Shown here piece after piece: positions 1,242 to 58,206 of a stretch of 64,000 nt of DNA (position 1 is the first letter of the stretch; the number at the start of each line of letters is the position of its first letter). The stretch is from the NCBI RefSeq assembly GCF_000243135.2, contig NC_019903.1, forward strand, positions 1,340,001-1,404,000, given 5' to 3'. A program made the translations under genes and the position numbers. Below the pieces are notes generated by a model that was not told the origin of the DNA, ran no database searches, and saw only the letters and a program-made list of their open reading frames with translations. Source of the DNA: Desulfitobacterium dichloroeliminans LMG P-21439 (GTDB lineage: Bacteria > Bacillota > Desulfitobacteriia > Desulfitobacteriales > Desulfitobacteriaceae).

Positions 1242-2669
1242 ATGAAACAATCATCTGTTAGGACTTGTCTGCTGTTAATTGTGGCACTTCTCGTTACCGC
1301 ACTATTCCCGATCACTGCATTTGCAGCTTTGCCGGAAGGTGTTCCTTCATCCATAGAAGCTCCTTCAATCCAGAACATCGCGTTAAAGACATATGATGAC
1401 GGCAGGCCATATTTTGAAGCCCAGGTCTATTTCCCCCAGAGCGTTCTCAATCTCGACAGCGAGGCCCCTGGCGGCGGTTCTGTTTTCTGGGACTATTCGG
1501 TGAAGGTTGACGACGGATCCTGGAACGAGTTCGGCGGCGGCGGATATATTAATGTTTACACCGGCGGCGAGGACGGCGAAGCACCCGTTAGCGCCGGGAC
1601 CTTTGCAATTACCTTCGATCCCATTGACGAAGGTACCCTGACCTCTGTCGATATTAAAAGCCATATTTATTCCTACCAGCTCCGCGTCTACTACGATTAC
1701 TACGAGGGCTGGCCGGACGTGCAGCCTATATATTCTCCCGTCTCCAATGTGGTTACCATCGGATCCGGCAGCTTCTACGCCGATTCCAAAACGGATCGTT
1801 TGAGCGGAGCCAGCCGAATAGAAACCGCGATTGCGGTATCGCAAGAGGGCTGGCCAAGCGGCGCCGATACCATCATTTTGACACGAGAGGACAATTATCC
1901 CGATGCGCTTACCGGAACGCCCCTGTCCAAAAAATGCGACGCTCCCATTCTGTTTACGAACCGTCTGACGCTGACCCCTGCCACAGCTGCGGAAATTGCC
2001 CGCTTAGGAGCTAAAAAGGTCATTGTTCTGGGAGGCAGCGGCGCTGTTTCCGAGGCGATTGAGAACAAACTGAAACAGAGTTATACCGTGCAAAGGATTG
2101 GCGGCGCCGACCGCTATGCTACGGCGGCGAAAATTGCTTCGGAGCTTGGCTATAAAGGCAAGGTCGTCATTACAACAGGCCAGGATTTTCATGACGCGCT
2201 GGTGGTCGCACCGCTGGCAGCCAATCAAGAAATTCCCATTTTGTTGACACAGCCGAATTCCCTGCCGGCTGTTATTCAAGCGGCGCTGCTATCTATAACG
2301 CCGACAGAGACCATCGTGGTTGGAAATCAGAGTGCCGTCAGCAACACTGTTCTGGGCCAACTGACCAATGCCAAGCGCATCAGCGGCAGCGATATTTACG
2401 AGACGGCAATCCTGGTAGCGAAGAATTTTGAGGCGAATACGGAGAGAGTATTTCTGGCTACAGGCAAGGACTTCCCAGATGCGCTGTCCGGCTCTGCCGT
2501 CGCCGCTAAATTTAACAGTCCAATTCTGTTTGTGGGCGAACCGCTTTCTACTTATGTAAAACAATATTTAGGGGATAACAAGCAAAACACCACAAAAGTC
2601 CATCTTTTAGGCGGGACTGGTGCGATTGCAGACACAGTCCGCAATGAAGTCGAACGTATCTACGAGTAG
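1242..2669 (+). CDS. Secreted cell-wall protein with three CWB2 repeats
   Basis: This is an exported surface protein of 475 residues. The start is the ATG at 1242, preceded by AGGAGG; an in-frame ATG at 1206 has no binding site. A signal peptide covers residues 1-28 (Lys and Arg, then a long hydrophobic core, ending AFA-A). Residues about 30-180 form an unrecognised beta-rich, Gly/Tyr/Asp-rich domain that is probably the functional head. Residues about 185-475 hold three cell wall-binding type 2 repeats (PF04122), marked by R-x-S/G-G-A/S-x-R-Y/I-E-T-A, D-x-x-x-D/N-x-x-D-A-L and the final hydrophobic-GG-x-x-A-V/I motif. In the family these bind anionic wall polymers and hold the protein on the Gram-positive wall. 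It is monocistronic, with a terminator at 2823-2863. The ligand of the head domain is unknown. Confidence 0.9.
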   Translation: MKQSSVRTCLLLIVALLVTALFPITAFAALPEGVPSSIEAPSIQNIALKTYDDGRPYFEAQVYFPQSVLNLDSEAPGGGSVFWDYSVKVDDGSWNEFGGGGYINVYTGGEDGEAPVSAGTFAITFDPIDEGTLTSVDIKSHIYSYQLRVYYDYYEGWPDVQPIYSPVSNVVTIGSGSFYADSKTDRLSGASRIETAIAVSQEGWPSGADTIILTREDNYPDALTGTPLSKKCDAPILFTNRLTLTPATAAEIARLGAKKVIVLGGSGAVSEAIENKLKQSYTVQRIGGADRYATAAKIASELGYKGKVVITTGQDFHDALVVAPLAANQEIPILLTQPNSLPAVIQAALLSITPTETIVVGNQSAVSNTVLGQLTNAKRISGSDIYETAILVAKNFEANTERVFLATGKDFPDALSGSAVAAKFNSPILFVGEPLSTYVKQYLGDNKQNTTKVHLLGGTGAIADTVRNEVERIYE

Positions 2670-2822
2670 GTGTTAATAAGCGTGTAACAAAAAATGTAAA
2701 TTGAACGTGCTTGAATCTCAGATAAATCAAGGGCTTTAGATAAAAAAGATGACATCGTGCTTGATTTGATTGCTGCATTATTAAAAGCTAAAAACATGAA
2801 TGGATTGATATACAGTAACAGA

Positions 2823-2863
2823 AATCCACACTCCGTTTAGTCTGCGGAGCGTGGATTGTTTTT
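2823..2863 (+). terminator. Rho-independent terminator
   Basis: A 13-bp stem (one G-T pair; arms 2823-2835 and 2845-2857) with a 9-base loop is followed by GTTTTT. It lies about 150 bases after the CWB2 gene and fits as its terminator. Confidence 0.8.
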
Positions 2864-2897
2864 AGCACATGCGAAGATTAAGATAAGCTTGAGGTGA

Positions 2898-3179
2898 ACA
2901 GAAACAAAGTGTCTTATAGCCACCGGCAACAACTTTCCGGATGCCCTGGCCGGAAGTGTCTATGCAGCAAATCACAATGCCCCAATCATCCTAGCGGACA
3001 GCAAGTTGTCTGATCAGGTCAGGACTTATCTGAAGGGCAAGAAACTAACCGGAGCGACACTATTCGGAGGAGAGGCTGTAGTCAGTAAAAACATTGAGCA
3101 GCAGATTAGACAGTTGATGGCGAGATACGCGTTCACACCGAATGTCTGCTTAAACAATTACAAGTCATGTGACCCTTGA
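2898..3179 (+). pseudogene. Decayed CWB2 repeat fragment
   Basis: An open frame with no start codon, beginning after a TGA at 2895, encodes a clear CWB2 C-terminal repeat. It reads L-I-A-T-G-N-N-F-P-D-A-L-A-G-S, then a P-I-I-L-A strand, then L-F-G-G-E-A-V-V-S. This matches the last repeat of the intact protein upstream (F-L-A-T-G-K-D-F-P-D-A-L-S-G-S). There is no signal peptide, start or RBS. It is best read as the 3' remnant of a second CWB2 surface-protein gene lost by deletion, or as debris of a tandem duplication. The frame continues to a stop at 3177-3179, past the conserved end. The rest of 2670-3299 shows no other gene. Confidence 0.75.
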
Positions 3180-3299
3180 GTATATAAAAAGATACAAATG
3201 AATTGAACAGGGGTAATAAATTGTAATATTTTTCAAAATAGCATTGTGTGACAAGCGGTCAGGTTATATCAGTGCTATCCTTTTTTCAGGAGGTATAAT

Positions 3300-4652
3300 A
3301 TGCATGCATGGCAAGCAATACAAAACTCATTGAACTATATTGAAGACCATTTGTCAGAGAATATAAAGATGGAAACTCTTGCAAATGTAGCATCATTATC
3401 ACCGTATTATTTTCAGCGCTTGTTTGGGCGTTTAGTGAAAAAATCTGTAAATGAATACGTGAGGCTGCGTAGGTTGGCAAAAGCTTCGGAAGCTCTTAAA
3501 AGTAAAGAAAAGCGAATCATTGATGTGGCACTTGATTATGGATTTTCAGATCATGCCAACTTTACTCGTGCATTTAAAGATGCATATGGCATTACACCAG
3601 ATGCATATCGTGATTGTCCTGTTATACTCAATCATTTCATCAAACCAGATCTGCTTTTGAACTATATCATGGTTAATGAAGATGTATCGTTAATAGCTGA
3701 TGGTATTGTGGTTGAAGTGATTCGTAGAAAACTGGATGAACCGCGCACATTTATTGGAATTGAAGGGGAGGTGCCTGATACTGAATTAACAGGAGGCAAA
3801 GGTACCGGTATTGCTACTACCGGGATAATATGGGATGAGTTCCATCGTCAGAAATCGAACATTCTAAATTTACTGCCGAATGGCAATGAATTTGGTGTTT
3901 TTTATTTGGGAGATGCCAGAGAAGGTTGCTGTAACTACATGGCCGGTGCTGAAGCCACCGGAAATATACAGGAAGAGGGATATGCTTCATATACAATTCC
4001 AAGCGGTGAATATGCCGTTTGCTGCTTGGAGGCAGAAAACTTTGCAGAACTTATTGGTTCCGCAATTTTCAAAGCGTCCTCATTTATGAATTGCTGGATG
4101 AAAAAGCACAGCCTGACTTGTGGCGATTTCGCTGCCGAGATATATTATAATAAAAATCAGGATGCCAGCTATATGGAGTTATGGCTGCCATTAAGCTCAT
4201 CGCAAAGGATATTTAAAATTAAACAAACATGGGATAAAACCAATGGAACACAAAAGCCATCAATAACAACCATTAACACCTATGTGAATAGCCCTTTATT
4301 TGAATGCCTGTGCAAACATATGGAGACAGAATATCAGAGCAAGCCGGTGCTGGAATATAGTAGATGTTCCTTGCAGTACGGATGGAATGTGAAATATAAA
4401 AAGGCAGGACGTACATTATGTACCTTGTATCCAAAGGAGGGATACTTTATTGCCCTTATAGTCATTGGTGATCGTGAGCAGACAGAAACCGAATTTACAC
4501 TCCCTTTTTTCACAGAGTATTTGCAACAGTTGTACCACGAAACAAAAAGCGGTATGGGTCAGAAGTGGCTCATGATAAACGTGACGAATGACGCGGTATT
4601 AGAGGATGTTAAGCAATGTATCGCCATCCGTAGAGGTAAAAAAAAAAATTAA
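3300..4652 (+). CDS. AraC-family regulator with GyrI-like and DUF3788-like domains
   Basis: A transcriptional regulator of 450 residues; AGGAGG precedes the ATG at 3300. Residues about 8-105 form the AraC/XylS double helix-turn-helix, here at the N terminus (Y-Y-F-Q-R-L-F, then D-V-A-L-D-Y-G-F-S-D-H-A-N-F-T-R-A-F-K). Residues about 135-290 resemble the GyrI-like/AraC effector-binding domain, with F-I-G-I-E-G-E and later S-Y-T-I-P-S-G-E-Y-A. The last about 150 residues (W-N-V-K-Y-K-K-A-G, L-C-T-L-Y-P-K-E-G-Y-F) resemble DUF3788, normally a separate small protein. AraC plus GyrI proteins usually sense small hydrophobic or cationic drugs. The next gene is a stand-alone GyrI-like protein separated by 16 bases, so the two probably act together. 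Confidence 0.85.
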   Translation: MHAWQAIQNSLNYIEDHLSENIKMETLANVASLSPYYFQRLFGRLVKKSVNEYVRLRRLAKASEALKSKEKRIIDVALDYGFSDHANFTRAFKDAYGITPDAYRDCPVILNHFIKPDLLLNYIMVNEDVSLIADGIVVEVIRRKLDEPRTFIGIEGEVPDTELTGGKGTGIATTGIIWDEFHRQKSNILNLLPNGNEFGVFYLGDAREGCCNYMAGAEATGNIQEEGYASYTIPSGEYAVCCLEAENFAELIGSAIFKASSFMNCWMKKHSLTCGDFAAEIYYNKNQDASYMELWLPLSSSQRIFKIKQTWDKTNGTQKPSITTINTYVNSPLFECLCKHMETEYQSKPVLEYSRCSLQYGWNVKYKKAGRTLCTLYPKEGYFIALIVIGDREQTETEFTLPFFTEYLQQLYHETKSGMGQKWLMINVTNDAVLEDVKQCIAIRRGKKKN

Positions 4653-46161: not shown

Positions 46162-49068
46162 ATGCCGCGTATTATTTTAAAGTGCCGGTATATTAAAAAC
46201 GCCGTAGTGCATCTGGAGAACCTGGTGGAATACGTCGCGACGCGGGAAGGCGTGGAGATGGTATCACAGTATAAACGTAATATGCTAATTACAGAAAAAC
46301 AGGAGAAGCTCATGGCGGACATCCTGGCACAGCTTCCTGACACTGCGGATTTATTTGAGTATGAGGATTACCTGAATCAGCCGACTGCAGCAAATGCTTC
46401 AGAATTCATTACAGCTGCGCTGGATCAGAATCTGGATCGGCTGTCTCATCAGGAGGTCTATGTCAATTACATCGCCACCCGACCCCGAGCCGAAAAGCTG
46501 GGCAATCACGGACTGTTCTCCGATGAGGATACTCCGCTGGTGCTGTCAAGAGTAGCGGAGGAAGTCGGAGGTCATGCAGGAAACGTATGGACGCCTATTA
46601 TATCTCTGCGACGAGAGGATGCTGCCCGGTTGGGGTATGACAATACCTCTGCGTGGATGGCACTCATCCGCAAGCAGAGGAATATTTTTGCCGAGCAGAT
46701 GAAAATAGCTCCGGAAAACCTGCGCTGGTATGCTGCATTTCATAACGAAGGCCATCATCCTCACTGCCACATGATAGTATACTCGGTGAACCCCCGTGAA
46801 GGGTATGTCACAAAGTCTGCCATTGATAAGATGCGGAGCAGTCTGGCAAAGGAAATCTTTCAGCAGGATTTGATACAGATATATTCTGAGCAAACCGCTC
46901 AAAGAAACGAGCTTGCCGAAAAGAGCCGGGAAGCCCTGAAAGAAATTATAGGAAGAATGGACAGGGGCGTGTGCGAGAGCGAAACTATTGAGGCATTGCT
47001 CATGCATCTGGCAGAACGGTTGAAGCACACCTCCGGAAAGAAGCAGTACGGTTACCTCAAAGCGCCCCTTAAAGCCATCGTGGATCAGATTGTAGATGAA
47101 CTGGCGAAGAATGAGCAGGTGTCGGAAGCCTATGCAAAATGGCAGGAAATTCGGAACGAAGTCCTGCGAACATATACTGATAAGCTTCCTGACCCGCTGC
47201 CGCTTTCACGGCAGAAGGAATTTAAGCACATCAAGAATATGGTGATCTCCGAAGCCATGAATATCGGCGGTCACCATTTTACATTTGAAGGCGATGAGTC
47301 TGCGGATATATTAAATGAAGAAACTGTATCGACGGCCCAAGAATTCGATTCCATGATGACGGAGAATGAACTAACTCTGGTCACGGATGAAGCACCGGAG
47401 GATGGTGATGATATGCCGCCTCCTGCTTCGGAGGGTTCATTCCGTGCGGATTCCGAAGATGCTGGTTCCGGAAGACCTCACATCGCGTGGAGTGATCGAT
47501 ATAAGGAAGCCCGTGCTTTTCTCTATGGCAGTGATGAACTGGAGCCTTATTTTGAGCAGGCCCTCCGTTTGTTTTTGCCGGAAGCCGAAGCAGGCAACGC
47601 GCTCGCCATGCACGACCTCGGCAGAATGTACGCAGACGGGCTTGGCGTGGATATGGATGCCGAAGCCGCATTCAGTTGGTATGAAAAAGCACTCTCCACA
47701 TTTCTGGAAATAGAAGCAAATAAGGAAAATCGGTATGTGGAATACCGCATCGGGAAAATGCATGCGGCAGGACTTGGCACGAAGCAGGATTATGAGGAAG
47801 CGGCTGGATGGTTTGAAATGTCGGCTTCGAGAAACTACAAATATGCCCAATATTCTCTTGCTGGTCTGTACTACCGGGGACAGGGCGTAGACCAGAGTTT
47901 TGAAAACGCCTTTGAATTATACCGCAGGTCTGCCGGACAACGTGTGCCGTATGCCGATTACGAGCTGGCCAAGATGCATCGGGATGGAATCGGCACGGTG
48001 AAGAACGGCGAAGAAGCAGAGCTGCACTTCGAGGAAGCCTTTTACGGCTTCAAGCGGCTGGAGGAACAGAGCCATGACGATAAGCTCCAGTACCGACTGG
48101 GGCAGATGCTCTACAGCGGAACCGGTACGGAAAAGAATGTGGAAGTGGCCATTGTATATTTTGAAAAGGCTGCCCGGCTTGGCAATGTCCACGCACAATA
48201 CATGCTCAGCAAAATCTATCTGGATGTGGACAGTGGTCATGAAAATGCTGAAAGGGCCGTCCAGTGGCTGACCAAAGCCGCGGAGAACGGCAACAGTCTG
48301 GCGCAGTATGCTCTGGGCAAGCTCTATCGGGACGGCAGTCATGTGGAGCAAGATATGGAAAAAGCAATTACCCTGTTTATTCAGTCAGCGGATCAGGAGA
48401 ACCAGTACGCAGCCTATGCATTAGGTAAACTGTATCTTAACGGTGAGAATATTCCAAAGGACGCGGCTACCGCCGTCAAATGGCTGTCGGTTTCCACAGA
48501 GCTTGGAAATCAGTACGCGCAGTACACACTGGCAAAGCTGTACTTTACCGGCGAAGATGCGCCTCAAGATATTCCAAGAGCTGTGGAGCTGTTCACTAAA
48601 TCGGCATTGCAGAACAATTCATTCGCACAATATCAACTTGGAAAGCTCTATCTGCTTGGCGAGCATGTTACCAAGAATGCGGAGTCGGCCGTCAAGTGGC
48701 TGATTTTATCCGCAGAGCAAGGCAATCAATATGCTCAATATGCCCTTGGAAAGCTGTATCTCATAGGCAGAGATGTACCTCGTGACCGGGAGGCAGCCAT
48801 TAGATGGCTGACCTTGTCTGCCGAACAGGGCAATATCTATGCGCAGTTTTTCCTCGACCATCTTGACTCTTTCCGTGATCCTCCCCTGTTCCTTGCGGCA
48901 ACAAGACTTTTGCATCACTTAAGCCGGATCTTTCAGGAGGAACAGCGAAGGCATTCCGTCGAACCCGGCATGCAGGTGGAAAGCAAGCTGCGCCGCAAGC
49001 TCCGTGAGAAAAAGATCGCCCAGGGTCACGCTTCGGACGATCATGAGCTCAAGCAAACAACCTATTAA
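46162..49068 (+). CDS. MobP/MobL-type relaxase fused to Sel1-like repeats
   Basis: A 968-residue relaxase. The His cluster H-N-E-G-H-H-P-H-C-H (about 194-203) is the metal-binding site; the N-terminal about 370 residues form the nickase. It lacks any helicase motifs. From about residue 470 to 910 come 11 full Sel1-like repeats and a partial one, marked by A-Q-Y-x-L-G-K-L-Y and A-V-K-W-L. Those helical repeats usually bind proteins. The nicking Tyr was not located. It would cut oriT and lead the strand through the coupling protein. Confidence 0.9.
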   Translation: MPRIILKCRYIKNAVVHLENLVEYVATREGVEMVSQYKRNMLITEKQEKLMADILAQLPDTADLFEYEDYLNQPTAANASEFITAALDQNLDRLSHQEVYVNYIATRPRAEKLGNHGLFSDEDTPLVLSRVAEEVGGHAGNVWTPIISLRREDAARLGYDNTSAWMALIRKQRNIFAEQMKIAPENLRWYAAFHNEGHHPHCHMIVYSVNPREGYVTKSAIDKMRSSLAKEIFQQDLIQIYSEQTAQRNELAEKSREALKEIIGRMDRGVCESETIEALLMHLAERLKHTSGKKQYGYLKAPLKAIVDQIVDELAKNEQVSEAYAKWQEIRNEVLRTYTDKLPDPLPLSRQKEFKHIKNMVISEAMNIGGHHFTFEGDESADILNEETVSTAQEFDSMMTENELTLVTDEAPEDGDDMPPPASEGSFRADSEDAGSGRPHIAWSDRYKEARAFLYGSDELEPYFEQALRLFLPEAEAGNALAMHDLGRMYADGLGVDMDAEAAFSWYEKALSTFLEIEANKENRYVEYRIGKMHAAGLGTKQDYEEAAGWFEMSASRNYKYAQYSLAGLYYRGQGVDQSFENAFELYRRSAGQRVPYADYELAKMHRDGIGTVKNGEEAELHFEEAFYGFKRLEEQSHDDKLQYRLGQMLYSGTGTEKNVEVAIVYFEKAARLGNVHAQYMLSKIYLDVDSGHENAERAVQWLTKAAENGNSLAQYALGKLYRDGSHVEQDMEKAITLFIQSADQENQYAAYALGKLYLNGENIPKDAATAVKWLSVSTELGNQYAQYTLAKLYFTGEDAPQDIPRAVELFTKSALQNNSFAQYQLGKLYLLGEHVTKNAESAVKWLILSAEQGNQYAQYALGKLYLIGRDVPRDREAAIRWLTLSAEQGNIYAQFFLDHLDSFRDPPLFLAATRLLHHLSRIFQEEQRRHSVEPGMQVESKLRRKLREKKIAQGHASDDHELKQTTY

Positions 49069-49085
49069 TGCAAAGGAGGGTTTAC

Positions 49086-49217
49086 ATGCTGAGGTTACAA
49101 ACAAAACATCAGGAGAAAAAGAAACCGTTTCCCGAAAAACTCAATCCGGCGTTATTCAAGCCATCCGCTCATCGACGGGTGGCTTTTTTTCGCCGGTGCG
49201 GCAGGCGTAAACGCTGA
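49086..49217 (+). CDS. Small basic ORF overlapping a terminator
   Basis: 43 residues, ATG 49086 after AAAGGAGGG. It is rich in Lys and Arg (H-Q-E-K-K-K-P, then F-F-R-R-C-G-R-R-K-R). Its 3' part runs through a terminator, so the Arg-rich end may be an artefact. Could be a small gene or chance. Confidence 0.3.
   Translation: MLRLQTKHQEKKKPFPEKLNPALFKPSAHRRVAFFRRCGRRKR
49158..49190 (+). terminator. Rho-independent terminator
   Basis: AAGCCATCCG and CGGGTGGCTT (one wobble pair), loop of 8, then seven T. It ends the relaxase transcript. Confidence 0.8.
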
Positions 49218-49235
49218 CTAAGGGGGTAGTGGAGT

Positions 49236-50669
49236 ATGGCATATATTCATTTTACAGACGAGCAAAAGCAGCAGGCAAACTCTGTCGACCTGGTTGACTT
49301 CCTCCAGCGTCAGGGAGAACAGCTTGTGCGCTCCGGCCGCGAGTGGCGCTGGAAGCGTCATGACAGCGTGACCGTGCGCGGCAATCAGTGGTTTCGCCAC
49401 AGCCGGAAGGAAGGTGGTCATGCTATTGATTTTGTTCAGCAGTTCTATGACATGAGCTTTCCCGAAGCTGTGAGCTTCCTGCTCGGAGAGGACTCAGGCG
49501 TGGAATGGAATCAGACAGTAAAGAGTGCACCTGCTCCCCGTAAGGAATTTGCTCTTCCGGATGCCAATCCGGATATGCGCCGAGTGTTTGCCTATCTAAT
49601 CAAACAACGGTTCATTGACCGTGAGGTGCTGTCTCACTTTGCACATAAAAAGCTGATCTACGAGGACAAGGAATATCACAATGCTGTGTTTGTCGGATTG
49701 GATGAAAAAGGCATCCCCCGTCATGCCCACAAGCGAGGTACTTATACTCATGGAGAACCGTATAAGGGGAATGTGGAGGGCAGTGACCCGAAATACAGCT
49801 TTCATTGGATTGGAGAGAGCAGCGTCCTCTATGTATTTGAGGCGCCGGTGGATATGCTGTCCTTCATCACTTTGCATCAGGATGGCTGGAAGCGGCACAG
49901 TTATGTCACGCTGGACGGAGTATCGGAACACGCCTTGCTCTGTCAGTTGAAGCTTAATCCCTATCTGAAAAGCGTCGTGCTGTGCCTGGACCATGATGAG
50001 GCGGGCATTGAGGCTGTCGGTCGGCTGAAGGATATCCTGTATGAAAAGGGCTATAGGGATATTTCCGTAATGCAATCGCAGTACAAGGACTGGAATGAGG
50101 ATCTGAAAGCCAAAAACGGTGTAAGTCCCATTCCGGCGAGAGAGCATCGGAAGCTGGAGCTTCTGCCAAAGGTTATCGCAGAGCTGCACGATTTGTGCAA
50201 AGCTCTTGCAGCGCATAAAGACATTGACTCCTTCCTCGCGGAGTGCGCCGAGGCAGCGGAACCGCTTCTTGCCTCCGGTAAAACAGCAGCTCTTAATGCG
50301 GAAGCTACTCGGGAATGTCTACAGTGTATGGCAGCTGGCTCACTGACAGCCATGCAAAGGCAGTTGCGCCAGATGGAACAGCCAGTGACAATGGAGCAGC
50401 TAATTCAAAAGCTGCAAGACAGCTACCATCCTCATGAGGATCGGGGCTGGCTTCGCACTAAGGCGGAGCAGCTGCGACAGGATGTTTCCAATATCAGCCG
50501 TCAGCTTCATACATCCGGCATCCGTACATTGGAGGATAAGGAAAAGCTCCTATCCTCCTATCAGCTCCTTGCGCTGGACTGCGTCAAAACCATGATGTTT
50601 GTTGAGCTGGAATTGCCGACTATGCTTTCTGTACAGGAGCAAGCAGTAAATTTTTCTATGACCATGTAA
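49236..50669 (+). CDS. DNA primase-like protein (DUF3991/Toprim)
   Basis: A 477-residue soluble protein. The N-terminal part (V-D-L-V-D-F-L-Q-R-Q-G, then W-F-R-H-S-R-K-E-G-G-H-A-I-D-F-V) is the CHC2-like/DUF3991 region of element primases, without the metal Cys. The Toprim part has V-F-E-A-P-V-D (about 205-212) and L-C-L-D-H-D-E-A-G (about 245-255). The C-terminal third is helical. The C terminus N-F-S-M-T-M is a Met tail. It would prime the complementary strand, possibly in the recipient. Confidence 0.8.
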   Translation: MAYIHFTDEQKQQANSVDLVDFLQRQGEQLVRSGREWRWKRHDSVTVRGNQWFRHSRKEGGHAIDFVQQFYDMSFPEAVSFLLGEDSGVEWNQTVKSAPAPRKEFALPDANPDMRRVFAYLIKQRFIDREVLSHFAHKKLIYEDKEYHNAVFVGLDEKGIPRHAHKRGTYTHGEPYKGNVEGSDPKYSFHWIGESSVLYVFEAPVDMLSFITLHQDGWKRHSYVTLDGVSEHALLCQLKLNPYLKSVVLCLDHDEAGIEAVGRLKDILYEKGYRDISVMQSQYKDWNEDLKAKNGVSPIPAREHRKLELLPKVIAELHDLCKALAAHKDIDSFLAECAEAAEPLLASGKTAALNAEATRECLQCMAAGSLTAMQRQLRQMEQPVTMEQLIQKLQDSYHPHEDRGWLRTKAEQLRQDVSNISRQLHTSGIRTLEDKEKLLSSYQLLALDCVKTMMFVELELPTMLSVQEQAVNFSMTM

Positions 50670-50682
50670 AGGAGGGGTCACA

Positions 50683-52500
50683 TTGCAGACATCCCAAATC
50701 ATTATCTTAACCGCTGCCGGGCTGACCATGTTCGGCGTTATCGGAATGTTATCACTCATAGCGCATTACTACACCTTAAACGGGATCAAGTCCAAAATCG
50801 TCGGCGACGGCCAGCATGGTACGGCGCGCTGGGCAACAAAGCGGGAGATTAAAAAGACTTATACGGAAGTTCCCTACGAGCCGGAGAAGTGGAGAAAGGG
50901 CGAAAGTTTTCCGAAAGCGCAGGGTCTGATAGTTGGCTGGAGGAAAGCGTTGCTATTTGACAATACTGCTCCGCATGGATATGCGATGGTAGACGATGAC
51001 GATATCCACTGCCTGATGATCGGTGCGGCAGGCGTCGGTAAGACCGCTAACTTTCTCTATCCTAATCTGGAATATGCCTGCGCCTGTGGCATGAGCTTTG
51101 TGACCACCGACACCAAGGGCGACCTCTACCGCAACTATGCCGGAATTGCCAAAGACTTCTACGGCTATGATGTTGCTGTCATTGACCTAAGAAACCCTAC
51201 CCGCTCGGACGGAAACAATCTTCTCCACCTGGTCAACAGGTATATGGACGCATACTTGAAAAATCCTCAGAATCTTGCGTTTAAGGCTAGAGCTGAGAAG
51301 TATGCGAAGATTACCGCAAAGACCATCATCAACTCTGGAGGTTTTGATACAGCAATGGCCGGGCAAAATGCCTTTTTCTATGACGCAGCGGAAGGACTGC
51401 TGACATCCGTTATTCTGCTTATAGCGGAATACTGTGAACCAAAACAGAGGCACATCGTGTCCGTTTTCAAGCTCATTCAGGATCTGCTTGCGCCCAGCGG
51501 CGTCAAGGGCAGGACTTTGTTTCAACTGCTCCTTGCCCATCTGCCGGATGAGCATAAAACAAAATGGTTTGCTGGGGCGGCACTCAACACTGCGGAGCAG
51601 GCCATGCAAAGCGTTCTCTCCACTGCGCTGTCCCGGCTCAATGCATTTCTGGACTCTGAACTAGAGCAAATCCTGTGCTTTGACACAGCCATTGATGCGG
51701 AGAAGTTCTGTATCAATAAAAGTGCAATATTCCTGGTAATGCCGGAGGAAGACAACACCAAGTATTTCATTATCAGTCTGATCGTACAGCAGCTCTACCG
51801 TGAAATCCTGTCATTGGCCGACGAGCATGGCGGAAAGCTTCCCAACCGTGTGATGATGTTCCTCGACGAGATCGGAACCATCCCCAAAATCGAGTCGGCG
51901 GAGATGATGTTCTCGGCTTCCCGTTCCCGCCGTGTGTCCATTGTAGCCATCATCCAGAGCTTTGCACAGCTGGAGAAAAACTATGGCCGCGAAGGCTCTG
52001 CTATCATCATAGACAACTGCCAGGATACCGTGTTCGGGGGGTTTGCTCCCAATAGCGAATCAGCGCAGATTTTATCAAAAGCCATGGGAAGCAAGACGGT
52101 CATGAGCGGCTCCATCAGCCGGGGTAAAAACGATCCGTCGCAGAGTCTGCAGATGATTGAGCGTCCGCTGATGACGCCGGACGAGCTGAAGTCTATGCCA
52201 AAGGGCCATTTTATTGTCACCAAGACGGGCGCTTACCCGATGCGTACCAAATTAAAGCTATTTACGAAATGGGGCATAACCTTCGGCAAGCCTTATGAGA
52301 TTGCCGAGAAATCGGCTCGAAAGGTGGAGTATGCCGACAGGCGCAGAGTAGAGGAAGAAATCATCCGCCGTCACTCTGCCTGCGTTGATGTGGCGGAGGA
52401 AGCTGAAGCTGGTGCAGCCGCATCGGGCGGGTTACTGCATACACCGTTTCAGGAGCCTGAAGCGCCTGTCAGGACAAAATCGCCTGTTCGGATTGAATAG
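50683..52500 (+). CDS. VirD4/TraG-like coupling ATPase
   Basis: A 605-residue protein. TTG 50683 follows AAAGGAGGGG. A transmembrane segment is at residues about 5-28. Walker A is G-A-A-G-V-G-K-T (about 114-121), with T-T-D-T-K-G-D-L (about 141) and Walker B V-M-M-F-L-D-E-I-G-T-I-P (about 390). It links the relaxase-DNA complex to the secretion channel. The N-terminal segment is short, as is common in Gram-positive elements. Confidence 0.9.
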   Translation: MQTSQIIILTAAGLTMFGVIGMLSLIAHYYTLNGIKSKIVGDGQHGTARWATKREIKKTYTEVPYEPEKWRKGESFPKAQGLIVGWRKALLFDNTAPHGYAMVDDDDIHCLMIGAAGVGKTANFLYPNLEYACACGMSFVTTDTKGDLYRNYAGIAKDFYGYDVAVIDLRNPTRSDGNNLLHLVNRYMDAYLKNPQNLAFKARAEKYAKITAKTIINSGGFDTAMAGQNAFFYDAAEGLLTSVILLIAEYCEPKQRHIVSVFKLIQDLLAPSGVKGRTLFQLLLAHLPDEHKTKWFAGAALNTAEQAMQSVLSTALSRLNAFLDSELEQILCFDTAIDAEKFCINKSAIFLVMPEEDNTKYFIISLIVQQLYREILSLADEHGGKLPNRVMMFLDEIGTIPKIESAEMMFSASRSRRVSIVAIIQSFAQLEKNYGREGSAIIIDNCQDTVFGGFAPNSESAQILSKAMGSKTVMSGSISRGKNDPSQSLQMIERPLMTPDELKSMPKGHFIVTKTGAYPMRTKLKLFTKWGITFGKPYEIAEKSARKVEYADRRRVEEEIIRRHSACVDVAEEAEAGAAASGGLLHTPFQEPEAPVRTKSPVRIE

Positions 52501-53256: not shown

Positions 53257-53649
53257 ATGATTGCAGGTCATAAACCAATACAGTGGAAGCAGGTTGATAT
53301 TGCCTTTCTGCTGAATAATGCACTTGTATTTCATGATAAGTCGGCCAAAATAGAGAAACACAGATATCGGTCATGGGAGCACTGCTATTCATTTTTTGCT
53401 AGGCATCAATCCGCAGCTGACGACGAAATCATCGGCTCAATGTGTCTGCATCTCTGTAACTATTTGAAAAGTTGGGGAATGTTCCGAGGCGCAGTGTTTC
53501 AAAAGGACTATAAGGTGCATTTTGAGGTTGTGTGTTTAATGCTTAACATGTCTTTTTTACGGTTTACTTTAATCCTTTTCCCCTGGCCAAGCACAGCGAG
53601 CATTCGAAATTTCCAAAGTACGAAAGATCCAGAAGCCTGTGGAACTTAG
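53257..53649 (+). pseudogene. Truncated hypothetical gene at the element's right end
   Basis: A 130-codon frame beginning directly after the previous stop. Residues 30-95 (H-R-Y-R-S-W-E-H-C-Y-S-F-F, then L-H-L-C-N-Y-L-K-S-W-G-M-F-R-G) match a hypothetical protein type that I recall as longer. After about position 53530 the sequence no longer looks coding in this frame, and it overlaps the tail of the minus-strand selenoprotein gene. The junction between element and chromosome probably lies near here. Confidence 0.55.
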
Positions 53650-53895
53650 TTTTAGGGGGTCCTCAGGATTGCGCAGCCGGATTCTAGAATCGAGGTGAAC
53701 TGTAATTTGATCGATTTGGTACGTAAGATATTCTGAATCGTCGGGTGTACCCCCTCGAACCGAGGGGACATGGCTTTCTATAGCCGTGCTGGAACTGCAT
53801 TTTCAGCCGCCTTCTAAAACACAATCAATGGTCACATGGGAATCGTACTTTTCGCTGATAAAAAGCCTGGCTTCTTCGGTAATGACAATGTACAT
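53569..53895 (-). CDS. Probable selenoprotein (in-frame UGA), CC/Se-motif-like
   Basis: Minus-strand gene of 108 residues from ATG 53895 to TAA 53569-53571. GGAGGAGA precedes the ATG. The frame is interrupted only by a TGA at 53803-53805 (codon 31), inside E-G-G-U-K-C-S-S. The continuation reads H-V-P-S-V-R-G-G-T-P-D-D-S-E-Y, then Q-I-T-V-H-L and F-W-I-F-R-T-L-E-I, all protein-like. A hairpin CCCCTCG-GTT-CGAGGGG lies 36 bases after UGA, slightly beyond the usual range for a bacterial SECIS. The start M-Y-I-V-I-T-E-E-A-R-L-F-I-S-E-K resembles the CC/Se motif (seleno)protein family as I remember it. Alternatively UGA may be a true stop, leaving a 30-residue peptide. Confidence 0.7.
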
Positions 53896-53920
53896 GGCTT
53901 ACTCTCCTCCACATCTTTAC

Positions 53921-53973
53921 TTATGAGTAGATGTTCATGTGTGTAGTTTACTCGTTAGAGTGTTTCTTTGCAA
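53921..53973 (-). promoter_or_regulatory. Promoter and ArsR-type operator of the selenoprotein gene
   Basis: On the minus strand, TTGCAA (53968-53973), 17 bases, TAAACT (53945-53950), then the imperfect palindrome whose plus strand is TTATGAGTAGATGTTCATGT (53921-53940). It matches the cadA operator at 16 of 20 positions. Confidence 0.7.
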
Positions 53974-54044: not shown

Positions 54045-54095
54045 TTGTAAGGAAAATTTGCATTTGCTATACTACATATGAACAGATATTCATAT
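54045..54095 (+). promoter_or_regulatory. Promoter and ArsR-type operator of cadA
   Basis: TTGTAA (54045-54050), 17 bases, TATACT (54068-54073), then the operator ATATGAACAGATATTCATAT (54076-54095), with arms ATATGAA and TTCATAT. Such 7-6-7 palindromes are typical of ArsR/SmtB/CadC repressors, and one is encoded at 56696. Confidence 0.8.
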
Positions 54096-54150
54096 ATTAA
54101 ATTGAGAAGACAATAATAGATATTTTTTAAGTGTTTTGGAGGGAAAAGAG

Positions 54151-56577
54151 ATGCAAGATAATCAAACAAATCTGGGGGAGGAACGTGTAAAATACCGGAT
54201 TGAGGGAGAATTCTGTGCCAATTGTTCAGCGAAGATGGAGAGAGCCTTGAGTTCAACAGAAGGAATCGGGGAGACCAGCATCAATTATGCAATGAAAACA
54301 GTTTTTTTATCTCCATCAAGGATGGAACAAGCGCAAGAAATCATGGATAAAATTGAACCGGGAGTTAAGCTAGTTCCAGCAAACGATACGAAAGCGTCCA
54401 ATGCTTCGGACAAAGTAAAATACCGGATTGAAGGGGAATTCTGTGCGAATTGCTCAGCGAAAATGGAGCGTGCCCTCAGTGCGACCGAGGGAATCGGGGA
54501 AACTTCCATTAACTATGCTACGAAAACCGTTTTTTTACCGCCTTCGATGATGAATCAGGCGCAGGAAATCATGGAAAGAATTGAGCCTGGAGTAAAACTT
54601 GTACCCATTGAAGGTAAAAAAAGAAAGAAATCTGCTGACAACGAAGAGGCCGAAGGCAATGAAGCTCAGAAAAAAATCATAACCATTTCCGCAGCAGGAG
54701 TCCTCTTTGTTATTGGACTCATCTTCGGATCCCGTTGGCATGGCACATCTCTAGAGTTCCTAGAGTATCTCGTTTATTTAGTGGCCTATGTCTTAGTCGG
54801 GCATGAAGTTTTAGAGAAAGCGTTTCGGAATATTCTCCGTGGTTCGGTGTTTGATGAGAATTTTTTAATGGCGCTAGCCACGATTGGAGCGATCGCGATT
54901 CACGAGCTCCCGGAAGCAGTAGGGGTTATGCTTTTCTACTCCGTAGGTGAGTATTTCGAAGATCGCGCAGTGAATCGGTCCCGACGTTCAATTCAAGCGG
55001 TCCTTAATATTCGTCCGGACTATGCTAATCTCGTTCACCAATTGAGCGTAACTAAAGTGGACCCGGAAGAGGTTCACATCGGGCAGCAAATTTTGGTGCG
55101 ACCGGGTGAAAAAGTTCCCTTGGATGGGGAAATCGTTCATGGAAGCTCCTTTGTGGATACTTCGGCTTTAACCGGCGAATCCGTTCCTCGTAAAGTTGAG
55201 GTAGGGGATACCGTTCTTGCCGGGATGATCAATAGTTCGGGAGTGATCACGGTTCGTGTTACCCGTGAATTTGCCGATTCTTCCGTGCAAAAAATCCTTG
55301 ATCTTGTGGAGAATGCAAGTTCACGGAAGGCCAAGACGGAGAAATTTATCACGACGTTCGCGCGTTACTATACTCCGGCTGTCGTCGTTGTTTCCTTAGG
55401 AATTGCTTTGATTCCACCGCTCTTCATGGGAGGAGACTTTAAGGAATGGTTATACCGTGCGATGACGATTTTAGTTATTTCGTGCCCGTGTGCTTTAGTG
55501 ATTTCTGTTCCTCTTGGGTATTTTGGAGGAATTGGTGGCGCGTCTCGCCACGGGATTTTGGTTAAGGGAGCGAATTATTTAGAAGCATTGACTGATGTTC
55601 GTACGGTCATTTTTGATAAGACAGGAACGTTGACTCAGGGTGTTTTTGAAGTGAATAAGATTGAGGCTGTTAATGGATATACAGAGGATCAACTCCTTGA
55701 AATTGCAGCAACCGCTGAAGCACATTCCAGTCATCCGATTGCGAAATCCATCCGTAAGAAGCTCGCTAAAGAAATCAGTCAAGACCTTATTGAAAGCTAT
55801 GAAGAAATCGGTGGAAAGGGAATTCGGACAGTAATCAGTGGGAAAAGCGTATTGGCAGGAAAGAAAGATCTTTTGCTCAATAACTCAGTGATTGTTCCTG
55901 ACCAGGAAATAAGAGAAGCGGGTACACTCGTGTATATCTCAGTCGATGGAGAATATGCTGGGTACTTGATGATTTCTGACCGCGAGAAAGAAGGAGCCAA
56001 AGAGTCTGTAGCGGAGCTTAATAAAGCGGGGATTACCACGGTTATGCTCACCGGTGATCATGAAACCGTTGCTAAGACGGTATCCGAGAAGTTAGGGGTT
56101 AAAGAGTATCATGCCGATCTGCTGCCGGAAGATAAAGTGACCTGGCTCGAGAAATATTTGGAGAAAGAAAAGGGGAACGGAAAGGTTGTCTTTGTCGGTG
56201 ATGGAATCAATGATGCACCGGTCTTGACCCGCGCCGATATCGGAGTAGCTATGGGGGGCTTAGGATCTGATGCTGCAATTGAAGCAGCCGACGTTGTGCT
56301 CATGGAAGATCAGCCGAGTAAATTACTCGATGCGATGGATATTGCGCGGTTCACGAAAAAAATTATTTGGCAAAATATTGGGTTTGCCTTAGTGATCAAG
56401 CTCGGTTTCATTGTACTTGGAATGTTTGGTGTAGCCACCATGTGGGAAGCGGTCTTTGCGGATGTCGGAGTGGCCTTGCTTGCGATCTTCAATGCCACGC
56501 GAGTAAGACGGTATTCAAATCCTCAAAAAGCAGTGGTAGGAAGTAGCGTTCCAGTCAAAGAAGTAACCGCTCGCTAA
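54151..56577 (+). CDS. cadA: Cd/Zn/Pb-exporting P1B-type ATPase
   Basis: An 808-residue heavy-metal pump. ATG 54151 follows GGAGGG. Two N-terminal HMA domains in tandem each have C-A-N-C (Cys 22/25 and 98/101), and they are nearly identical. Membrane helices follow; the motifs are T-G-E-S (actuator), C-P-C-A-L (about 445-449, transport site), D-K-T-G-T (D489, phosphorylated) and G-D-G-I-N-D-A-P. The CPC motif and a C-terminal helix pattern point to Cd/Zn/Pb rather than Cu. It is regulated by the ArsR-type operator upstream. Confidence 0.9.
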   Translation: MQDNQTNLGEERVKYRIEGEFCANCSAKMERALSSTEGIGETSINYAMKTVFLSPSRMEQAQEIMDKIEPGVKLVPANDTKASNASDKVKYRIEGEFCANCSAKMERALSATEGIGETSINYATKTVFLPPSMMNQAQEIMERIEPGVKLVPIEGKKRKKSADNEEAEGNEAQKKIITISAAGVLFVIGLIFGSRWHGTSLEFLEYLVYLVAYVLVGHEVLEKAFRNILRGSVFDENFLMALATIGAIAIHELPEAVGVMLFYSVGEYFEDRAVNRSRRSIQAVLNIRPDYANLVHQLSVTKVDPEEVHIGQQILVRPGEKVPLDGEIVHGSSFVDTSALTGESVPRKVEVGDTVLAGMINSSGVITVRVTREFADSSVQKILDLVENASSRKAKTEKFITTFARYYTPAVVVVSLGIALIPPLFMGGDFKEWLYRAMTILVISCPCALVISVPLGYFGGIGGASRHGILVKGANYLEALTDVRTVIFDKTGTLTQGVFEVNKIEAVNGYTEDQLLEIAATAEAHSSHPIAKSIRKKLAKEISQDLIESYEEIGGKGIRTVISGKSVLAGKKDLLLNNSVIVPDQEIREAGTLVYISVDGEYAGYLMISDREKEGAKESVAELNKAGITTVMLTGDHETVAKTVSEKLGVKEYHADLLPEDKVTWLEKYLEKEKGNGKVVFVGDGINDAPVLTRADIGVAMGGLGSDAAIEAADVVLMEDQPSKLLDAMDIARFTKKIIWQNIGFALVIKLGFIVLGMFGVATMWEAVFADVGVALLAIFNATRVRRYSNPQKAVVGSSVPVKEVTAR

Positions 56578-56695: not shown

Positions 56696-57073
56696 GTGAT
56701 GCCGAATGATCAAAATAATGAGACTGAAAACCTAATCTGTGATGTTGTGTGTGTTCATCCGGATGTGGTTAGTTCGTATTCAAACCAAGTTCTAAGTCTT
56801 GATCGAGCAACCCAACTGGCGGAATTATTTAAGACGCTTGGAGATCCTACACGGATTCGGATTATGGATGCACTTGCGAAGTCGGAATTCTGCGTTTGTG
56901 ACTTAGCGGAGCTTTTGGACTTAAGTCAGTCTGCTACCTCACATCAGCTTCGAGTGCTTCGGAACAGTAATCTGGTCAAGTACCGGCGAGATGGGAAAAT
57001 GGTGTATTATTCCTTACAGGATAATCATGTGCAAGAGCTATACCGTCAGGGTCTAGAGCACATCGACGAGTAA
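56696..57073 (+). CDS. ArsR/CadC-family metal-responsive repressor
   Basis: A 125-residue repressor. GTG 56696 (GAGGTG eight bases upstream) or ATG 56699 could start it. N-terminal C-D-V-V-C-V-H-P; the helix alpha-3 has E-F-C-V-C-D-L-A-E, the CadC-type metal site; recognition helix S-Q-S-A-T-S-H-Q-L-R-V-L-R. It likely represses cadA and the divergent selenoprotein gene and releases in Cd, Zn or Pb. Confidence 0.88.
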   Translation: MMPNDQNNETENLICDVVCVHPDVVSSYSNQVLSLDRATQLAELFKTLGDPTRIRIMDALAKSEFCVCDLAELLDLSQSATSHQLRVLRNSNLVKYRRDGKMVYYSLQDNHVQELYRQGLEHIDE

Positions 57074-57294: not shown

Positions 57295-58206
57295 ATGGGT
57301 TTTGGGCATAATCACGAGCAGGAGCATCATTCGCATTCTCAAACTTCGAATAAGAAATTACTCTCTATTGCACTCTTCATTACGGTAACATTCATGATTG
57401 CAGAAATTATCGGCGGAATCATTGCCAATAGCCTTGCTCTAATTTCGGATGCGGGTCATATGTTTAGTGATGCCTTTTCACTCGCTCTTAGTTTAATAGC
57501 TATGAGGCTGGCAGCACGGCCGGCATCAGCCAAACGGACTTTCGGGTTTTATCGATTCGAGATTCTTGCAGCCTTTGTGAATGGAGTGACCTTGGCGGTT
57601 ATTTCTCTCATCATATTTTATGAAGCCTATCGACGAATCCTAGAGCCCCCTATGGTTCAAAGTGGGATGATGATCGTCATCGCGGTGTTAGGACTTTTGG
57701 CAAATCTGGGATCTGCAGGCATTTTGATGAAGGGGGATACGAAAGGAAATCTCAATTTACGAAGTGCCTTTTTGCATGTGCTCGGGGATATGTTAGGTTC
57801 TGTCGGTGCTATTGTTGCCGGAATCTTAATTCTCTTGTTTGATTGGTATATGGCGGATCCGATTATCAGTATCATCGTTGGAGCTCTGGTATTGATAAGC
57901 GGGTGGAGAGTGACTAAGGAATCCGTTCACGTTTTAATTGAAGGGACTCCGGGACATATCAATGTGAATGAATTAAACCAGCAATTACATACAGTGGATG
58001 GGGTTCAAGGAATCCATGATTTGCATGTTTGGACGATTACTTCGGGTTTGGAATCTTTGAGCTGTCATATCGTCGTTGCTCCAACGAAGAATGCCCAAGA
58101 GATTCTCCTTGCTTGTAAACACATGATTCAGGAGCGTTTTGGAATCAATCATGTCACGTTGCAACTTGAGACCGAAGAATTAAAGAGACTTGAACCGAGT
58201 ATCTAA
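57295..58206 (+). CDS. czcD: CDF-family zinc/cadmium exporter
   Basis: A 303-residue cation diffusion facilitator (CTAGGAGG before ATG 57295). A His-rich start (H-N-H-E-Q-E-H-H-S-H-S) and six transmembrane helices, with L-I-S-D-A-G-H-M-F-S-D in helix 2 and a matching site in helix 5. The cytosolic C-terminal domain (about 205-300) contains the H-D-L-H-V-W-T strand. It moves Zn or Cd outward in exchange for protons and follows the cadA locus. Confidence 0.9.
   Translation: MGFGHNHEQEHHSHSQTSNKKLLSIALFITVTFMIAEIIGGIIANSLALISDAGHMFSDAFSLALSLIAMRLAARPASAKRTFGFYRFEILAAFVNGVTLAVISLIIFYEAYRRILEPPMVQSGMMIVIAVLGLLANLGSAGILMKGDTKGNLNLRSAFLHVLGDMLGSVGAIVAGILILLFDWYMADPIISIIVGALVLISGWRVTKESVHVLIEGTPGHINVNELNQQLHTVDGVQGIHDLHVWTITSGLESLSCHIVVAPTKNAQEILLACKHMIQERFGINHVTLQLETEELKRLEPSI

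Follow-up and report, generated by a model that had tools for sequence, protein, structure and literature searches.

Does the UGA that interrupts a short minus-strand reading frame of Desulfitobacterium dichloroeliminans specify selenocysteine (Sec) and, if so, what might a small selenoprotein be doing next to genes for heavy-metal efflux? The frame lies in the window, the 64,000-nucleotide stretch of genomic DNA that was analysed, in whose coordinates the features below are given. It starts at ATG 53895, stops at the TAA at 53571–53569, and encodes 108 residues when its TGA is taken as Sec: MYIVITEEARLFISEKYDSHVTIDCVLEGG-U-KCSSSTAIESHVPSVRGGTP...NARCAWPGEKD. The original prediction had described this frame, with its coordinates, its single TGA, its 77 open codons beyond the TGA and its ribosome binding site, and every one of these details is confirmed, with the ribosome binding site at 53910–53903.

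53569..53895, minus strand: selenoprotein gene, CC/Se motif family, subtype GGU[KR]CS; 108 residues plus stop
53803..53805, minus strand: in-frame UGA (codon 31), assigned to selenocysteine from paralog and ortholog alignments
53903..53910, minus strand: ribosome binding site GGAGGAGA, also kept before a second copy of the gene

A UGA-containing gene and its relatives

The frame alone is little proof of a gene, because a run of 77 open codons arises by chance in about 3% of trials with Markov-random sequence. The stronger argument is homology, which extends to either side of the UGA. Read through, the protein matches one NCBIfam model only, NF041239 ('CC/Se motif family (seleno)protein'), with residues 1–97 aligned at 43.6 bits (41.5 bits in a six-frame search of the genome); the family named in the original prediction is thus the correct one, if narrowly, at the curated cut-off of 40 bits. 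A Pfam search with the read-through protein gave no match, a sequence search of the PDB gave no relative, and a scan of genome contigs with the alignment of the two genomic copies as query gave no match. Among viral contigs and plasmids, neither the protein nor its subtype was found.

The second copy, at position 1149177 of the genome on the plus strand, is 71% identical and has a UGA at the same codon; beyond the UGA, the two copies differ with pN 0.13 and pS 0.29. Orthologs of the same subtype (GGU[KR]CS ... CAWPGE), also with UGA, are found in Desulforamulus aeronauticus DSM 10349, which has two copies close to the ends of a single contig, in the metagenome-assembled genome (MAG) of Gracilibacter sp. 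BRH_c7a (G058) and in genome G198; G198 and G229 both have UGA orthologs at the Sec column. More distant relatives have either UGA at that column (G074, G075, G026, G006 and others) or a Cys codon (G076–G078, G080 and G081), and Sec and Cys homologs alike align beyond the UGA. NF041239 members are present in 34 of the 46 genomes of the taxonomic family, and across the phylum the profile finds a relative in 82 of 398 genomes, most matches containing exactly one TGA. Three genomes of the same genus, G003–G005, are without the gene. Two or three family genes, each with one TGA, lie clustered at G119:C21:6375–10102 and at G431:C218:194–966.

The family is already on record as hypothetical: NF041239 appears in a 2026 review among hypothetical selenoproteins, with the motif CxxU and a predicted member in Moorella thermoacetica (PMC13188914). 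The protein described here shares with it the profile match, Sec or Cys at the motif column, small size and a P-x-V-x-x-G block. Members vary at the motif (CC, CU, UC, UxC, UxxC); unlike the listed CxxU, ours is GG-U-x-C, and C25, U31, C33 and C101 are invariant in its subtype (U31-x-C33). It also differs from the family at large in the longer spacing from U to P, in a displaced SECIS-like stem, and in its heavy-metal gene context.

The genome, one contig of 3.62 Mb, has the machinery that decoding would call for. The genes selA (496 bits), selB and selC (71.3 bits) adjoin each other at 3.025–3.029 Mb, and selD is found as well (382 bits), so that all four of the sel genes are accounted for. 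Both checks that could have overturned the original prediction, alignment of homologs beyond the UGA and a search for the sel genes, thus came out in its favour. Together with the NF041239 match, the second UGA copy and the UGA and Cys relatives, they bear out the central claim of the original prediction, a selenoprotein gene with a read-through UGA, and we regard that assignment as near certain. By the same comparisons, Sec would be inserted in vivo at residue 31. A gene caller would end the frame at codon 31, as if the UGA were a true stop and the remainder were decaying; we give this reading hardly any credence, in view of the UGA at the same codon of the paralog and of orthologs from other genera, all with the frame intact, the preference for synonymous changes, and the complete set of sel genes. 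Conservation of the UGA across lineages likewise led us to reject a pseudogene or a sequencing error. The same genome has an additional selenoprotein gene, HesB-like, at G000:C1:1547484–1547753 (L124), where an in-frame TGA occupies the position of the first conserved Cys (YGUGGP).

A displaced SECIS-like stem

The original prediction had also drawn attention to a stem downstream of the UGA. The stem is there, at 53767–53751, with its first base the 36th past the UGA as described; that position, however, is too distant for a standard SECIS. A further hairpin, at 53785–53772, went unmentioned.

53772..53785, minus strand: accessory hairpin GGCU-AUAGAA-AGCC between the UGA and the SECIS-like stem; putative spacer
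53751..53767, minus strand: SECIS-like hairpin CCCCTCG-GTT-CGAGGGG, with GU in the loop

The standard bSECIS model places the apical loop 16–37 nt past the UGA, with G in the first two loop bases and a stem of at least 4 bp. No hairpin of this gene qualifies at 16–37 nt; the GU loop is at 41–42 nt, and throughout the subtype at 41–44 nt. A subset of bSECIS elements is reported to depart from the standard model (PMC13188914), so the 16–37 nt spacing is usual, not universal. Relatives G074 and G075 have the same stem beginning 21 nt past the UGA and its loop at 27 nt, within the 16–37 nt range, because five codons are missing between the U and the P-S-V block, and in several further members of the family a loop with a G falls at 23 nt. 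The extra 15–18 nt of the window subtype contain the second hairpin, 14 nt long, which in D. aeronauticus takes the form GGCUAU-CA-AUAGCC. Subtracting these 14 nt from 41 leaves 27 nt, the very spacing of G074. Folding of the accessory hairpin would therefore restore a normal distance between UGA and SECIS, and we infer for it the role of a spacer.

The stem codes for part of VPSVRGG, and was compared with synonymous recodings of the same stretch. Total fold energy of the 63 nt past the UGA was not significant (46 of 500 recodings, window), and the test was accordingly exchanged for one of the specific hairpin. Recodings with a stem as strong are rare for the window gene (17 of 2000), for locus L166 (57 of 2000) and for G074 (2 of 2000); the excess is less clear for locus L168 (168 of 2000) and for the second copy (120 of 2000). 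Upstream of the UGA dS is 0.66; it is 0.15 in codons 32–50 and 0.46 in the codons that follow. One stem pair varies as UA, AU and GU, weak support from five sequences with small pair counts. An Rfam search gave no match. A terminator was considered for the stem and rejected: it lies inside a conserved coding frame, and no T run follows. Two of the Cys relatives, L099 and L100 (G077 and G078), show very strong RNA folding just past the GGC codon (2 of 500 recodings equal it), perhaps a relic of a SECIS.

Probable kinship with IscA, SufA and HesB

When 69 sequences of the family were aligned by hhalign with the HesB-like proteins of the relatives, the result was a probability of 95.8% and a score of 50.9 over 90 columns, with U31 placed on the first HesB Cys/Sec. 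Reversed, the comparison gave 8%, and eight column shuffles each gave less than 0.5%. Single subfamilies reach only 7–60%, and so the fold signal requires the family as a whole. AlphaFold2, run on the window protein with two orthologs, produced a model of pLDDT 85.6 and pTM 0.77, whose only significant structural neighbours (Foldseek E below 0.001) are SufA and IscA of Escherichia coli (PDB 1r94, 1x0g, 2d2a), SufA at E 1.8e-4. The best VIA match is IscA, with Z 7.8 over 84 residues at 3.1 Å, a value that, being below 8, is weak alone and could reflect a common arrangement. Because the structure match agrees with the profile comparison, homology to IscA is likely. On these profiles and this predicted structure, the CC/Se family is likely to be a distant relative of IscA, SufA and HesB, with Sec on the first cluster-binding Cys.

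The distance is considerable. The models for HesB-like and Fe-S_biosyn proteins (PF01521, TIGR01911) do not match the window protein. The proposed homology to them is full-length and puts Sec in the same Cys/Sec column, although the UxGP motif and the Cys-rich tail of the HesB-like selenoprotein (TIGR01911) are missing here. Identity to IscA and SufA is 9–15%, and the gene adjoins cadA rather than lying in an isc or suf operon. The ligands of E. coli IscA are Cys35, Cys99 and Cys101; in the window protein Sec31 would be the first, followed by a single conserved C-terminal Cys (C101). IscA binds zinc in vivo through its three cysteines, and zinc overload thereby stops Fe-S assembly (PMC6495748).

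Metal-efflux context and a possible function

Upstream of the selenoprotein gene, across 240 bp of intergenic DNA and divergent from it, is cadA, with an ArsR/SmtB gene and a CDF pump further downstream. The motifs FCVCDL and DxHx10HxxE of the regulator correspond to metal sites of the CadC/SmtB type.

53924..53937, minus strand: ArsR/SmtB-like operator TGAACATCTACTCA of the Sec gene, two mismatches to TGAACA-N2-TGTTCA
53945..53973, minus strand: sigma-70-like promoter TTGCAA-N17-TAAACT, found by eye and common to the second copy
54079..54092, no strand assigned: ArsR/SmtB-like operator before cadA, TGAACAGATATTCA on the plus strand
54136..56577, plus strand: CadA-type heavy-metal P-type ATPase (TIGR01512, 531 bits)
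56696..57073, plus strand: ArsR/SmtB metalloregulator with FCVCDL and DxHx10HxxE
57295..58206, plus strand: CDF cation efflux transporter

The second copy is in similar company: an ArsR protein (80% identical) comes next, and beyond it lie, in this order, a ZIP transporter, a further ArsR and a CadA. The gene order in D. aeronauticus is CadA, ArsR, CadA, M23 peptidase, Sec gene; in G198, CadA is followed by the Sec gene after about 136 bp; and in Gracilibacter, ArsR, CadA (with an internal stop), a kinase and two M23-type peptidases precede the Sec gene. The stop in the Gracilibacter CadA, in the 3' part of the gene (L196, about 2200–4640), points to decay or to an assembly error. The M23-type peptidase genes at L166:4794–7761 and L168:3326–5980 adjoin the Sec gene in both Desulforamulus and Gracilibacter, and so make a conserved neighbour. 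All five loci of the window subtype have a P1B ATPase no more than about 8 kb away, versus none of 21 loci of other subtypes; the Fisher p of 1.5e-5 is optimistic, since the five loci stand for about three independent lineages. The window genome has six such ATPases above the cut-off, and its two Sec genes sit beside the two that score best. Other subtypes lack metal contexts, and a metal role is therefore not to be extended to the whole family.

ArsR proteins are encoded in both clusters, and operator-like sites are found at both Sec promoters and at cadA. The genome contains TGAAYATCTGTTCA at exactly two places, one 24 bp before the ATG of the second copy and the other at 54079–54092 before cadA. 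In the cluster of the second copy, further operator-like sites, with single mismatches, precede the ZIP gene and are found at the second ArsR gene. At both Sec genes the operator-like site directly follows TTGCAA-N17-TAAACT, the arrangement expected for repression. A search for the motif did not find it at the Sec promoters of D. aeronauticus, Gracilibacter and G198. In D. dichloroeliminans, to judge from these sites, the Sec gene is probably switched on together with the metal-efflux genes.

What, then, might the protein do? Most likely, we think, it is an IscA-like carrier, either soft-metal-binding or metal-tolerant, that is induced with the Cd/Zn/Pb efflux system. SelA, SelB, SelC and SelD would decode the UGA at 53803–53805 as Sec31, guided by the GU-loop hairpin at 53767–53751, while the 14-nt accessory hairpin folds to bring the loop within reach. 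The protein would adopt an IscA/SufA/HesB-like fold in which Sec31 takes the position of the first Cys that binds cluster and metal in IscA; Cys25, Cys33 and Cys101 may be co-ligands. As long as no Cd, Pb or Zn is present, a CadC-like ArsR protein would, we infer, repress both the Sec gene and the divergent cadA. Once induced, the selenoprotein would bind soft metal, or carry Fe-S clusters so that they withstand displacement, while CadA and the CDF pump export the metal. The best explanation as a whole—decoding via two hairpins, an A-type fold, and an ArsR-controlled role in metal handling—strikes us as reasonably probable. Pressed further, to a selenium-based resistance to Cd, Pb and Zn in which an ArsR-controlled IscA-like protein with a two-hairpin SECIS uses Sec31 and Cys25, Cys33 and Cys101 for metal capture or metal-tolerant Fe-S delivery, the proposal becomes a tentative one. 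A Sec form of IscA with additional cysteines might capture soft metals or deliver Fe-S clusters in spite of them, and the data fit either.

If delivery were the whole of the job, the protein would be an A-type carrier proper, a metal-tolerant substitute for IscA under metal stress that sequesters no metal. Its fold and Sec position agree with this, and because IscA is inactivated, and Fe-S assembly stopped, when zinc is in excess (PMC6495748), a replacement induced along with cadA makes sense; yet of the usual C-terminal C-x-C there is only a single conserved Cys, and no isc or suf genes were seen beside the Sec gene. We consider this unlikely, though worth serious attention. Many selenoproteins are redox enzymes (PMC13188914), and U-x-C is similar to redox motifs, so one might picture a selenenylsulfide enzyme that reduces disulfides or peroxides arising from metal stress. 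The fold, however, is IscA-like and not thioredoxin-like, and some related Sec forms read GGU-T-P, with no Cys close downstream; among the alternatives for a functional protein this has the poorest prospects in our view. Slightly better, and still improbable, is an unrelated function, with proximity to cadA a matter of co-mobilisation on an integrative element. Immediately to its left, the window has genes of conjugation type, and the absence of the gene from G003–G005 fits such an origin. Against it stand the association with CadA at every locus of the subtype but at none of the others, in about three lineages, and the operator-like sites common to the Sec gene and cadA.

A carrier induced with metal efflux, the reading we prefer, would not be the first link between Sec and metals. 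SaoL/SaoC/SaoB, MbdU and the SO_0444 family transporter are Sec proteins proposed to handle heavy metals (PMC13188914). Ours resembles them in being a Sec protein with a proposed part in metal handling; they belong to different families, and that review describes none of them as IscA-like or as belonging to a cadA/ArsR cluster. As far as we have checked, the probable kinship with IscA, SufA and HesB, the CadA link of the subtype, and the over-distant SECIS-like stem with its intervening hairpin are new. Placement with IscA and HesB, and the link to CadA and ArsR, provide the first testable function for a family otherwise hypothetical, and the gene context suggests a selenium-based part in metal stress: possibly an instance of Sec serving soft-metal chemistry instead of classical redox catalysis. 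The tandem hairpins offer a way to probe how the limit on UGA-to-SECIS distance can be bypassed.

The surroundings of both copies have features of their own, all seen by eye. Relaxase-like, primase-like and TraG/VirD4-like ORFs occupy 46162–52500 of the window and end shortly to the left of the Sec gene, so that the metal cluster may be situated at or in an integrative element. One of these ORFs, at 46162–49068 (968 aa), appears to be an unusual fusion in which numerous Sel1-like repeats follow a relaxase-like N terminus. At L049:1350–1760, upstream of the second copy, the sequence resembles what is left of a group II intron, beside a piece of a MacB-like gene.
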